Assembly: GCF_013374995.1 (NCBI RefSeq)
Contig: NZ_CP056030.1
Coordinates: 4,558,501-4,622,500, forward strand
Length of the DNA stretch: 64,000 nt
Origin: Pseudomonas eucalypticola
GTDB lineage: Bacteria > Pseudomonadota > Gammaproteobacteria > Pseudomonadales > Pseudomonadaceae
Direction of reading: 5' to 3'
Below are positions 60,106 to 64,000 of this stretch, piece by piece. Under the pieces are notes generated by a model, which searched no databases, was not told the origin of the DNA, and worked only from the letters and a program-made list of their open reading frames with translations. The position numbers and the translations under genes are program-made. Each line of letters opens with the position of its first letter. Positions within the stretch are counted from its first letter, which is position 1.

Positions 60106-61092
60106 TCATGACTGCCCGGGCAACCCTGCCCAGGACACCAGCAACGCTTCGAGCAACAACACGCGGTTGAGGTTGGCCTTGGACAGCACCTTCTGGCGCT
60201 GGGCCAGAATCCAGTCCTGTACTGCCAACACCTTGCCCTGCCCGCTTTTCTGCGCCAGGTACTGCACCACCTTGCGCATGTCCTGCAAGCCTAACCCCTC
60301 TTCATCCTGCGTCAACTGGTAACGCAGGATGAGGTTGGACCAGTCGCAGAACCAGTCGAACAGCAACAACAGGGGAATGGCGTTCCAGGCTTCGGCCAGT
60401 TGCGTGGGCGACGTCTGCTGCTTGAGCAACTTCTTCACGCCCTCGACCACCAGGGCCCGCTGCTCGACCACGCCCTGGGCCTGCAGGCTGACCGCCACCA
60501 GGGGCGAATCCGCCGCCAGGGTCAGCAGTTCTTCACGCTGTTCATCGCTGCTGTCCGGCAATGCCGTGGCCAGCCAGGCCAGGCTCGTGGCGTGGCTGGG
60601 CAGCGGGCAGGCCTGCTGCACGCAGCGGCTCTTGATGGTGGGCAGCAGGCGGCTGGGCTGGTGACTGACCAGCAACAACACGGTGTTGCCCGACGGCTCT
60701 TCCAGGCTTTTGAGCAAGGCGTTGGCGGCGTTGATGTTCATGGCCTCCACCGGCTCGATCAGCACCACCTTGCGCCCGCCCAACTGCGCGGTCTGCACCA
60801 CGAAGCTGACCAGGTCGCGGACCTGGTCGACCTTGATGGCCTTGTCGGCCTCCTCGGGCTCCAGGATGTAGTTGTCCGGGTGGCTGCCGGCGGCGAGCAG
60901 GTGGCACGACTTGCACTGGCCGCAGGCCGCCAGGCCAGCAGGGTGCTGGCATAGCAGCAAGGCCATCAGCCGCTCGGCCAGGGCCCGCTTGCCGATACCC
61001 TTGGGGCCATGCAACAGGTATGCATGGGCGTGCTGGCCGCGGCCGGCCAGATGCTGCCAGAGGCTGTCCTGCCAGGGGTAGGCCTCAGCCAC
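60106..61092 (-). CDS. holB: DNA polymerase III delta-prime subunit
   Basis: A 328-residue clamp-loader subunit. The P-loop-like [13 protein letters not shown] and the zinc module ([16 protein letters not shown]) are visible. It is normally translated in an overlap with tmk, and here it still overlaps the truncated tmk remnant by eight bases (61085-61092). holB is expected to be essential, so it must now be driven from within the inserted DNA upstream. Confidence 0.95.
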
Positions 61093-61453
61093 GGCAGCGT
61101 GCCTCGATGGTCGGCAACAGGCTGTCCAGCTGCTGCTGCACCTCGGCCAGGGTCAGCGCCGCATTGACCAGGGTGTAGCGCCCGGGCGCCGCCTGGGCAC
61201 GCGCCAGGTAGGTGTTGCGCACGGCTTCGAAGAACGCGCGGCCTTCCTGCTCGAACCGGTCCAGGCGCCCACGGGCAGTGGCGCGCGCCAGGCCAACTTC
61301 CACGGGCAGGTCGAACACCAGGGTGAGGTCGGGGCGCAGGCTGCCCTGAACGAAATCCTCCAGGCTGGCGATGCGCGCCTGGCTGAGGCCACGGCCGCCG
61401 CCCTGGTAGGCATAGGTGGCGTCTTGTATTCGTTCTTGATTGAATGTAAACAT
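61085..61453 (-). pseudogene. tmk: 5'-truncated thymidylate kinase remnant (tmk')
   Basis: The frame [10 protein letters not shown] continues into [18 protein letters not shown] and to the normal Tmk C-terminus EARCRG (122 residues). Roughly the first 98 residues of a normal ~210-residue Tmk are missing, including the P-loop GPEGAGKS and the DRF catalytic motif that normally stands right before DATYAYQ. The retained part holds the LID region (ARGRLDRFE). The fragment cannot be an active kinase. The change point is near 61420, and the DNA beyond it is foreign. The ATG at 61453 would allow the remnant to be translated into holB, possibly preserving translational coupling. Confidence 0.85.
61413..61428. 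other. Junction between tmk remnant and inserted DNA (candidate attachment site)
   Basis: Homology to Tmk begins at GACGCCACCTATGCC (minus strand, ending near 61428), which encodes DATYA. Sequence further upstream on that strand (CGAATACAA) has no match to Tmk. The exact core cannot be set without the other end or an empty site. Confidence 0.5.
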
Positions 61454-61464
61454 GAACTTACTAT
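61436..61464 (+). promoter_or_regulatory. Opposing promoter reading into the element
   Basis: -35 TTGATT (61436-61441), 17-base spacer and -10 TACTAT (61459-61464) on the plus strand; this overlaps the outward promoter face to face. Confidence 0.45.
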
Positions 61465-61490
61465 ACACCCTTAAAGCAATATGTAAACAT
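61444..61490. repeat. Direct repeats ATGTAAACAT
   Basis: Two identical 10-base copies at 61444-61453 and 61481-61490 frame the two overlapping promoters. One covers the start of tmk' and the other covers the -35 of the outward promoter. Confidence 0.65.
61460..61487 (-). promoter_or_regulatory. Outward promoter reading into tmk' and holB
   Basis: On the minus strand, -35 TTTACA (61482-61487), 16-base spacer and -10 TATAGT (61460-61465) each match consensus at five of six bases. The predicted start falls on or beside the A of the ATG at 61453, so the transcript would be leaderless. Confidence 0.65.
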
Positions 61491-61538
61491 CGTCCAATAA
61501 CCCTCAAACCCCAAGGAATCCGGGGTCTGGAGCCAGTT

Positions 61539-62432
61539 TTGCCCACTATCATCGGCCTTGCCGCGATTGCGCGCTCAGGGAAAGACACTGTCGCCTCAAT
61601 GCTCCTTGAGCACGGTGACGTAGCAGCGTACGCCCTGGCGGACCCTCTGAAATTGGGGTGCCAATCGCTCTTCGGTCTTACTGATGAAGAGACATGGTCG
61701 GACGACCTGAAAGAGAAACAGATTCCGGCTTGGGGAATGTCCCCACGCCAAATGTTCCAGCGCGTCGGAACGGAATTTTTGCGCGATCATAACCCAGACC
61801 ACTGGCTACTGCGCGCTGATCGGCATTTGAACCACCCGAAACCAGAGTCAGAGCCAGCCCTATCTCCTTCCGCCGAGCCCGCTCAATCCTCTTCCTTTAT
61901 AGAAGCAGCAGTCGTACCCGCAACCAGCTCAGCAGCGAAACCATCAGGAACACCTGCGGAGATACCAGATCTGGCAACCGCCTCCATCTGGCTGGCCGTG
62001 CAGTCGATTTGGGGGATCACAGACCAGCAAGCGTTCGAACCCGCATCCCGAGACGCTACCGATCCTTATTGGTCACTAACGCCAAACGAGATGTATGGCG
62101 TACTTGAACACTACTTGGATAAATACTTCCCAAACTATGAGGAAGTGCGAAACAAGCTCCCATTGCAACTACCAACCAGAAGCCTCACCCCAACAGAAGG
62201 CAAAACCAAGTTCATCATCAAAGACATTCGCTTTGAGAACGAAGCCGACTTCTGGCGCAGCCATAACGGCGTGATCTGGCATATCATCAGGCACAACGCG
62301 GCCAAGGTTAACGCTCACACATCAGAAGCAGGAATAAAAGTTCAACAGGGTGATACCACCATTAAAAATAATGGTACACTTGAAGAACTTAGACTAAAAG
62401 TGGACTTGGCCTGGACCAACGTCCATTCCTGA
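61539..62432 (+). CDS. Phage-type deoxynucleoside monophosphate kinase with internally duplicated segment
   Basis: A 297-residue protein with P-loop [12 protein letters not shown] (Lys15), a feature of T4 gene-1-like dNMP kinases, followed by [34 protein letters not shown] and, near the C-terminus, [15 protein letters not shown] and HTSEAG. The start is taken as TTG 61539 with GGAG six bases before it; a TTG at 61440 would overlap the tmk remnant. Residues 37-89 (with [13 protein letters not shown]) appear repeated at 150-203 (with [13 protein letters not shown]), separated by a Ser/Ala/Pro-rich linker. T4 dNMP kinase phosphorylates dTMP, dGMP and modified dCMP. The gene is AT-richer than its neighbours, which indicates transfer. 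Confidence 0.8.
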
Positions 62433-62446
62433 TTGAGCCAAGACCA

Positions 62447-64000
62447 ATGGACGTAAATGAAGTACTCGACATCGCCACAGTCGAAGCACGCTGTGGCATG
62501 TTGCTGAGAGCCCCCTACCTGAACCATCCGTATTACAGCAGCACTTCCAACCTGTGCATAACGCTACATTACATCTTCATGCGCTATGCACCCACGGTTG
62601 TAGCCGAAAACGGCTATCGACTTTCAAGAGCGATCTGCATCTTTTTCGACTACCTAACCGAACAGCGCGAAATTACGCCAGTCGCGCTTCAGCCCACTGA
62701 GTTCTCCGATATCTCTATCGAGGTTCTGTTGGGATACCAAGACTATCTGCACCGCAATAAAATGCCCATCTCCAACGCGGAAAAAATGAAGAGTGCATTC
62801 GGTGCGGTTGCGAAGCAGCACGGCACCATCCCCCTTCTGCTCTTCCCAGTGATCAACCGCCCCCCTAGCAAGAAGACCGAGCCCTTGAGCGATGATGCGT
62901 ACGAGGGCCTCAAGACCGCGCTGATCACGCACATCGACAAGCTGTACGAGAAACTCGAATACCGCAAGGTCGTTGAGCGTGCGACAGCCTACGAGTACCA
63001 CTCAATCCCTCCAAATGATCCTGATAACCCGCTCCCGGTGCGAGCCTGGAACATCGATCATGCCCGCAGTTTGAAAACGCTGACTGAACTCGGCTTCCCA
63101 ATGGGGATTCCTCTCGACATTTTGTCCGAAAGCATGAGTCGCCCCCGCATCAACGGCTATAGCCGAGATTGCGATACTATTCTTAAAGCCCTCATGTACA
63201 AATACATTATCTGCGCAGGCACAGAAGGCCACATCAAGCTCGACGACCTGTTAGATAAATACTATCCAACCTCAATGGACCAAGCGGCGATTGTCGTATT
63301 CCTGCTCCTTCAATCTGGATGGAATAAAGAGACTGTTATCGGAATTGACGAGTCTGACTTTGAGCACGTCCTGACGGGTTCAATTGACGAGGGTCTTGCG
63401 GTTATTTTTTCAGAAAAGTATCGCTCGCAAGGCCTGGACAAGCCGTACGAGGCGCCGAAGACTATTACTGCATCAAGTAATCGTGAGGATCGCTATTCGA
63501 TCTACAGCCTTATTATTTTGGCCCAAAAACTATCCGCACCATTGAAAGGATATCCATTCGACACCAATCCATTCCAAAAGGCTTGGGAAGAGCGTAATCC
63601 GCTTTTTCTATTCCTGAGAGCGAATGGGGACTGGTTCAAAAATGGAAGTCGCCACTCCTCCGTTTCGGTGCTTCGAGCTTATGTCGTTGGCATTGAGCAC
63701 TTCTTGAAAGAATACGAAGTCATCGAAGATGGTAAGAGACTGCTACGAGCAGCCGACATTACCAAGAGGCTCAGACCAACCTGGTCCCTTCACAAAAAGC
63801 AGACCACGCCACTGAGCATGATTGCCACCCATTTTGGCCACGAGTCTACGTCCACAACCGACGTGCACTACGACAGCTCCGGTGCCGCGATGAAAGAGCG
63901 CCGCGAGCGGCTGCGGGATGAGCTTGAGGCGGTCGTCACGCTACTGGTGAACCGGCAGTTCACCGGGCTGATGAGCAAAAAAGCCAATGCCCAGGCAAGC
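62447..64000 (+). CDS. Tyrosine-recombinase-like protein, runs off the window
   Basis: An open frame of 518 codons from ATG 62447 with no stop before the window end, 14 bases after the kinase gene, so probably one operon. The N-terminal part looks like a core-binding region (ICIFFDYLTEQREI, LLGYQDYLHRNKM). Near the end, Arg443 (KRLRPTW), His462/His465 (ATHFGHES) and Tyr475 (DVHYDSS) are spaced like box II of tyrosine recombinases. The first catalytic Arg is not evident (LLQSGWNKETVIGI instead of a TGLR-like box). It could be one member of a multi-recombinase module. The base composition is again lower in GC than the core genome. Confidence 0.7.
   Translation, partial: MDVNEVLDIATVEARCGMLLRAPYLNHPYYSSTSNLCITLHYIFMRYAPTVVAENGYRLSRAICIFFDYLTEQREITPVALQPTEFSDISIEVLLGYQDYLHRNKMPISNAEKMKSAFGAVAKQHGTIPLLLFPVINRPPSKKTEPLSDDAYEGLKTALITHIDKLYEKLEYRKVVERATAYEYHSIPPNDPDNPLPVRAWNIDHARSLKTLTELGFPMGIPLDILSESMSRPRINGYSRDCDTILKALMYKYIICAGTEGHIKLDDLLDKYYPTSMDQAAIVVFLLLQSGWNKETVIGIDESDFEHVLTGSIDEGLAVIFSEKYRSQGLDKPYEAPKTITASSNREDRYSIYSLIILAQKLSAPLKGYPFDTNPFQKAWEERNPLFLFLRANGDWFKNGSRHSSVSVLRAYVVGIEHFLKEYEVIEDGKRLLRAADITKRLRPTWSLHKKQTTPLSMIATHFGHESTSTTDVHYDSSGAAMKERRERLRDELEAVVTLLVNRQFTGLMSKKANAQAS

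Follow-up and report, generated by a model that had tools for sequence, protein, structure and literature searches.

A stretch of 64,000 nucleotides of Pseudomonas eucalypticola (contig NZ_CP056030.1, positions 4,558,501 to 4,622,500) was analyzed, in which tmk, the gene for thymidylate kinase (TMPK), is cut by an island whose first gene encodes a deoxynucleoside monophosphate (dNMP) kinase (dNMPK). Judged from sequence comparisons, the island is very probably a site-specific element with a four-protein module of multiple tyrosine recombinases, which attaches in a conserved motif of tmk and carries a kinase that makes the insertion survivable. As a rule, mobile elements stay out of essential genes or rebuild the end of the gene from a short repeat. 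The elements related to this island destroy a catalytic motif of genes that are hardly dispensable and bring along a complete enzyme as a substitute; at least five combinations of target and replacement were found.

The whole stretch of 64,000 nucleotides, called the window below, corresponds to G000:C1:4558501-4622500 (G numbers stand for genomes, G000 being that of the window, and L numbers for loci), so the far end of the element could be read in the same contig. The names holB, mltG, lgt, pncB, prlC and MATE are readings of translations. At the near end of the element the following features were identified:

60106..61092, minus strand: host gene read as holB (DNA polymerase III delta'), an open reading frame (ORF) downstream of tmk and overlapping it, which fits the tmk-holB order in the accessible text on P. 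putida KT2440
61085..61423, minus strand: 3' part of the split host gene tmk, 339 bp, from the PF02223 match and the reading of the junction
61418..61423, minus strand: 6-bp spacer of the attachment site, host-derived, GACGCC on the tmk strand; GAYKCN in 17 of 18 left ends, the far end differing in 7 of 8 elements
61424..64000, plus strand: left 2.6 kb of the element (of 33,912 bp, running on to G000:C1:4653835), from the comparison of ends and the drop in GC
61446..61488, plus strand: two subterminal GTAAAC repeats (61446-61451 and 61483-61488), with similar repeats in other left ends; putative recombinase-binding sites
61460..61487, minus strand: promoter-like site pointing outward to the tmk 3' part and holB, TTTACA-16-TATAGT, 10 of 12 consensus matches
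61539..62432, plus strand: dNMP kinase, probable replacement for Tmk (PF21448, 81.6 bits; P-loop; PDB 1DEK/1DEL)
62447..64000, plus strand: 5' part of a Tfp/GinC-like recombinase relative (654 aa in full, L004:2448-4412), from alignment; the next genes lie beyond the window

In G000 tmk is broken at window position 61423/61424, and the other half of the gene is found 34 kb off. The 3' part covers positions 87-184 of PF02223 (55.8 bits) and overlaps the downstream gene read as holB, homologs of which adjoin the tmk part in other loci too. The 5' part, 294 bp at G000:C1:4653842-4654135, adjoins the gene read as mltG. Both parts are still open reading frames without internal stops in the matches listed. 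The element of 33,912 bp has a GC content of 52%, and the flank before it has at least 60% GC in most of the GC windows. The original prediction, made from the letters of the window, had tmk reduced to its last half and joined at about 61420 to AT-richer DNA; the split and the AT-richer DNA were borne out, and the join was moved to 61423/61424. As an alternative it had allowed for a complete tmk rebuilt at the far end, which was refuted: beyond position 64000 the gene read as mltG and the tmk 5' part were indeed found at the far end, and the 5' part stands there alone. A full tmk elsewhere in G000 was likewise rejected, as the PF02223 search gave no normal-scoring Tmk; beyond the two parts the third match was a paralog with 31.6 bits. 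The same split was also recovered in other genomes. An assembly error at the junction is very unlikely, because 16 further genomes of the dNMPK type have a tmk split at identical profile positions (15 with both parts and one draft metagenome-assembled genome (MAG) with the 3' part).

A closely similar case has been described in P. putida KT2440. According to the accessible text of Wirth et al. (2023, mBio; PMC10653934), a 65-kb island cuts tmk of this strain into 294 and 339 bp, and the dNMP kinase of the island, PP_1964, is the essential thymidylate kinase, which complements tmk deficiency and whose inactivation succeeded only with E. coli tmk in trans. The upstream tmk part and the paralog PP_3363 could both be deleted. 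The island is termed prophage-like there, and dNMP kinases are said to be common in phages. As in the window, dNMPK is the last gene on the holB side and recombinases adjoin it. Since the lengths of the parts are identical and the substitution was proven in KT2440, the idea of the original prediction that the element disrupts tmk and substitutes for it is right and had been proven before in a relative; the tmk case adds one more member to a phenomenon that is already in print. The kinase on the holB side and its four neighbors (three recombinase-like, one other) match the KT2440 pattern by gene kind and place, not by sequence, and the element of the window differs from the KT2440 island in its length of 33.9 kb, its other cargo and its defense-type genes. 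The accessible text of PMC10653934 contains no link to SE/GInt-type elements and no parallels at thyA, nadE or yfbR.

The kinase starts with TTG and matches PF21448 with an E value of 8e-23 and 81.6 bits against a curated cut-off of 27.1. Its only match in the PDB at E <=0.01 is the phage T4 enzyme (1DEK/1DEL), in agreement with the prediction of a T4-gene-1-like dNMP kinase as the first gene inside. The P-loop and other invariant residues are retained in an alignment of 13 dNMP kinases, in which the C-terminal segment aligns as well. Compared with the T4 gene 1 kinase, which belongs to the same PF21448 family and aligns in the P-loop and the C-terminal segment, the enzyme of the window has a longer middle region and is carried by a non-phage element. 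On the basis of family and alignment, it is the probable replacement for Tmk. A protein search with it returned 369 relatives at E <=1e-10; PP_1964 was not singled out among the best 120 of the 369. Among plasmids the kinase had one partial match, in Thioalkalivibrio.

In a search of 398 genomes from the family of the window genome, 10 had a strong match to the 654-aa protein (E <1e-90), and 8 of these 10, the window genome included, had the long dNMPK together with tmk in two parts. Genomes with only the compact, unlinked form of dNMPK had a complete tmk in 17 of 17 cases. When the dNMPK-type genomes were searched with PF02223 (n = 17 including the window genome), a complete Tmk was found in none of them, both parts were found in 16, and one MAG had the 3' part only; weak PF02223 paralogs of 22-36 bits were present in most. 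Twenty named loci with the module were obtained from a scan of a collection of 84,980 species; four of them duplicate genomes of the family set (G350, G366, G346, G320). In thirteen loci dNMPK lies beside the 3' part of tmk (Pseudomonas, Psychrobacter, a Kangiellaceae MAG and another gammaproteobacterial MAG), four have a complete Tmk beside mltG (Colwellia, Pseudoalteromonas and two Pseudomonas), and the remaining ones are a Rheinheimera locus, a short contig and a decayed copy. Across these hosts the kinase keeps a constant place beside the recombinases. The distances between dNMPKs followed those between the IntB recombinases (r 0.93, 0/5000 permutations, 17 elements); those between host tmk parts gave r 0.29 with IntB (166/5000 permutations, 16 elements) and r 0.35 with dNMPK (65/5000 permutations). 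By these measures the kinase is a core component of the element and not cargo, and travels with the recombinases.

It could be argued that the two Tmk parts form an active enzyme or that a paralog provides TMPK, the kinase of the element serving another purpose, as both tmk parts are open frames and G000 contains the weak PF02223 paralog of 31.6 bits. This is scarcely credible given the KT2440 genetics, in which the upstream part and PP_3363 are deletable and PP_1964 needs E. coli tmk in trans (accessible text of PMC10653934), and given G285, which keeps its dNMPK though both tmk parts are gone. In G285 the kinase is left beside holB (L076:9436-10272) and the recombinases are gone as well. GTTTAC end motifs still lie next to it there, a domesticated case.

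The kinase is followed, in this order, by genes for the 654-aa Tfp/GinC-like protein, a recombinase of the IntB kind (PF00589), the 344-aa Srap/GinD-like protein and a 433-aa recombinase of the IntA kind. The 654-aa protein has no Pfam match, but aligns with recombinase-like proteins and has recombinase-like motifs, which agrees with the tyrosine-recombinase-like second gene of the original prediction; the first catalytic arginine is absent by reading of the alignment. The 344-aa protein was named by its place and has no family match. A class-level search with a Tfp profile gave the window genome alone (1/369 at E <=1e-6), and an order-level search for IntB gave 10/361, among them G1040, in which IntB is broken. 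No match named after the gamma-mobile-trio (GMT) was obtained in NCBIfam, where the presence of GMT models in the library was not checked. An Rfam scan of the left 19.5 kb of the element gave no matches.

Both ends could be read in eight elements; on the tmk strand they consist of host CGYTTYACC, a 6-bp spacer and host ACNTAYGCN. The GAYKCN spacer at the kinase end is a host codon pair, L131 being the exception among the left ends, and the differing hexamer at the far end is CAAAGT in the window element. At the termini lie imperfect inverted repeats, with GTAAAC or near variants of it in subterminal position, and the two end regions of the window element share no exact repeat of 10 or longer. 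A promoter-like site that points outward was detected at p <=0.02, by consensus match only, in 6 of 18 left ends. For an inward promoter of the kinase, 8 of 12 matches were found in the window element (p ~0.5).

The module and the ends were compared with known elements. As described in the accessible text of PMC10214605, SEs encode a module of four proteins, among them two RHRY recombinases and a third that is recombinase-like, in the order intA-tfp-intB-srap; their ends are imperfect inverted repeats, the 6-bp exchange is one-sided and the circle strand-biased, and no empty site is detectable. The make-up of the module, the imperfect inverted repeats and the one-sided 6-bp footprint are common to SEs and the window element; the latter has the order Tfp-IntB-Srap-IntA, whereas its thyA and nadE relatives do follow the SE order. 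Of the core proteins, only IntA gave a weak BLAST match to the SE on pAQU1 (26%, E 4e-5). GInts, in the accessible text of PMC5385486, are islands with a ginABCD operon at one end, which encodes three recombinase-like proteins (GinC without the first arginine) and a small protein; they have large cargo that can be acquired, and their ends carry imperfect direct repeats (10-17 nt). Staggered cuts of 6 nt are proposed for them and some lack an empty site; their reported insertion sites lie in an ABC transporter gene and at the ends of ssb and of a duplicated ribonucleotide reductase gene, and no replacement strategy is described there. Likened by description, they resemble the window element in module make-up, in a third recombinase without the first arginine (in the window element by reading of the alignment), in large cargo and in a 6-nt exchange, and differ in gene order. 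Tn554-related transposons, also likened by description (accessible text of PMC10214605), have two tyrosine recombinases, TnpC and a 6-bp footprint and, unlike the window element, no counterpart of Tfp. From these comparisons, the element resembles an SE/GInt-like multi-recombinase element, not a prophage. The name SE/GInt-like is used because the gene order and the pAQU1 comparison are not those of an SE and GInts were compared by description.

A conventional prophage or a conventional island akin to integrative and conjugative elements would restore tmk by precise excision, its kinase being phage-derived cargo and the substitution incidental. The KT2440 island was called prophage-like and dNMP kinases are frequent in phages (accessible text of PMC10653934), but this explanation is highly unlikely. 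The Tfp-like protein had no relative in 2.9 million viral contigs (two viral scans), and 10 cargo proteins scanned with Pfam, which do not comprise every ORF, contained no phage structural or conjugation domain; on these two results a prophage identity was rejected. In addition, the kinase keeps its place beside the recombinases and diverges together with them, and relatives have other targets, each with a matching enzyme of its own.

These other targets include a second site in tmk. In Tmk-carrying sisters the host gene is cut in the P-loop, between GPEGA and GKST (junctions read in G320 and G354), and the Tmk of the element occupies the former place of host tmk behind mltG. A complete Tmk and a host tmk match starting at profile position 6 were found in 5/5 genomes (G320, G354 and those of L121, L130 and L133), and the left side of the element in G1095 is like this P-loop Tmk type. 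In Rheinheimera soli (L131) tmk is split near the DRFT site; L131 was considered as an element in tmk without a kinase, which was dismissed as a complete Tmk was found at the other end of the element.

The family search gave 12 loci from 11 genomes; in 10 of the 12, a relative with the order IntA-Tfp-IntB-Srap sits in thyA at the RS-D motif and has a complete ThyA directly behind srap. Host thyA was in two parts in 9/9 family genomes concerned, and the ThyA of the element was the sole complete copy in 8 of the 9. In G093, which has three complete ThyA matches, the copy number is uncertain because one contig is identical to the end of another contig (9,292/9,292 bases). The same arrangement was present in G1069, from another family, with a ThyA of a different clade. 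In the two remaining loci nadE is cut after GTDHAAEAV. Near their far end these elements encode an NAD synthetase of the glutamine type (CN_hydrolase and NAD_synthase domains), unlike the broken host nadE, which is of the short type. In G797 yfbR is cut, and the first gene of the element is a complete YfbR (L193:5817-6410). The HD motif is catalytic in YfbR; at the cut motif the protein of the element has HE instead of the HD of the broken host copy, and its activity is uncertain. The pairing of target and enzyme is specific: thyA is complete in both nadE hosts, and nadE is complete in G000 and G386. Taken together, a matching enzyme was present in 36/36 genomes with an established cut target (17 dNMPK, 5 P-loop Tmk, 1 Rheinheimera, 10 thyA, 2 nadE and 1 yfbR), all of which were recruited via the recombinase genes and not via the enzyme. 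L134 (short contig) and G1095 (left side only) were excluded from these counts, and L129 was counted at locus level only.

The match between target and cargo might have arisen by local duplication if the replacement had been captured from the host chromosome at or after insertion. This would fit the homology of the ThyA, Tmk and YfbR of the elements to the broken genes and the gain of cargo reported for GInts (accessible text of PMC5385486). It is nevertheless very improbable, as dNMPK and glutamine-type NadE are not orthologs of the broken gene and the position of the replacement is fixed within each type. Moreover, between G386 and G054 the ThyA proteins of the elements are 78% and the host ThyA parts 35% identical, and the distances of the element ThyA follow those of IntB (r 0.65, 47/5000 permutations, n = 10), whereas those of host ThyA do not (r 0.22, 799/5000 permutations, n = 7).

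ThyA-type elements were also found on plasmids, namely pZXPA-20-602k of P. putida and p1_Teo6 of P. asiatica (L174 and L175; NZ_CP061724.1 and NZ_CP139777.1), and on both the ThyA is the sole PF00303 match. This suggests that plasmids are vehicles of the elements. A plasmid route could explain the source of the 6-bp footprints that are not tmk-like; the alternative is later drift of the 6 bp. The p1_Teo6 element is interrupted by an IS: an IS30 transposase gene precedes the IntB gene, and IntB matches only from query residue 260.

In the mechanism proposed here, a four-protein multi-tyrosine-recombinase module of the SE/GInt kind would move the island site-specifically into the conserved tmk motif DRFT-DA-TYAYQ. 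Strands would be swapped over the 6-bp spacer, so that the host 6 bp are kept at the kinase end and the 6 bp borne by the circle arrive at the other end; the ends were observed, and from them the exchange itself is inferred. The insertion, probably by a copy-out route, would destroy tmk, and the dNMP kinase at the very end of the element would restore the lost kinase activity on dTMP (deoxythymidine monophosphate), as was shown for KT2440. An outward promoter for holB and for the tmk 3' part left behind may also come from the element. As replacement and recombinases travel together, the element could enter cells with tmk, and a carrier could not lose it without losing thymidylate kinase; lethality of imprecise excision is plausible. 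The relatives would act on the same plan, with the tmk P-loop and Tmk, thyA and ThyA, nadE and glutamine-type NadE, and yfbR and YfbR. The general principle would be a self-complementing insertion, in which a near-invariant motif serves as the attachment site and an enzyme makes the hit survivable. It is likely that a whole class of such self-complementing, multi-recombinase, copy-out-like elements exists, which use near-invariant catalytic motifs (tmk twice, thyA, nadE, yfbR), carry a fixed isofunctional enzyme, sometimes of an unrelated family, and cause core enzymes to be replaced by non-orthologous ones, of which G285 is an example.

The carried enzyme could also be chiefly an addiction device, integration first succeeding in cells that still have the activity from elsewhere, for instance from an uncut copy on a sister chromosome. 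A cell that lost the element would lose its only TMPK, ThyA or NadE, and fast-growing cells carry several chromosome copies. By itself this does not account for the place of the replacement, which lies inside the recombination module or at its border, and as a full explanation it is rather unlikely; it may hold jointly with self-complementation.

Several observations weigh against the proposed mechanism. The outward promoter-like site is clear in none of the left ends other than the 6 of 18, and inward sites at p <=0.05 were found in 6 of 18 left ends too. A special recoding of the attachment site in the ThyA of the elements was not supported: four pairs had data on either side of the site, with mismatch fractions of 0.39-0.52 at the site against 0.31-0.40 overall (two further pairs had too few positions). 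To our knowledge, yfbR is not known as essential, and the sample is small outside tmk and thyA. The profile comparison with one SE, that of pAQU1, gave low probabilities for Tfp and Srap, and the likeness to GInts is one of description only. Furthermore, no replacement was seen in the stretches examined for module relatives beside the gene read as prlC (L077, L078) and at two further sites (L194, L195), and a relative in a MATE-type gene (L196) had no MATE copy in the ~14.5 kb right of the junction. Replacement is therefore not universal in the wider group.

The same plan was found at other nucleotide and NAD genes, and self-complementing insertion therefore looks like a general way to settle in genes that are hardly dispensable. 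As far as searched, the SE/GInt-like nature of the tmk island and the use of the same plan at other genes and with other enzymes are new; the literature, of which most subscription journals and all supplementary files were out of reach, yielded nothing on the cases at thyA, nadE or yfbR or on the general plan. If true, an attachment site would be available in very many bacteria and the host would be made dependent on the element. This would account for puzzling split core genes in genomes, offer a route for non-orthologous replacement of universal enzymes and predict which deletions in genome reduction fail. The KT2440 curiosity would become a testable class, recognized by a split core gene, a flanking module and a substitute inside.

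Some further relatives and cargo genes were noted. A five-gene relative of the module (Tfp-like, IntB-like, ~314 aa, 128 aa and IntA-like) occurs in L077-L081 (G103, G126, G060, G162, G146); it is near-identical in several genomes and lies downstream of the gene read as prlC in L077 and L078. L137, from a Paraburkholderia MAG (Vsou symbiont), is a decayed module copy outside tmk in a genome with a complete tmk. L134, a 5-kb contig labeled Streptomyces sp. IBSBF 2953, contains a Pseudomonas-type module and is possibly assembly contamination. Inside the window element, beyond the window, the cargo resembles a defense island (L004:17101-18402, L004:15542-16420, L005:3312-5516 and L005:9797-12412), with a reverse transcriptase nearest to the retron type VI model, a weak match to a TIR effector, an AAA protein matching PDC-S06 and a NERD-helicase.

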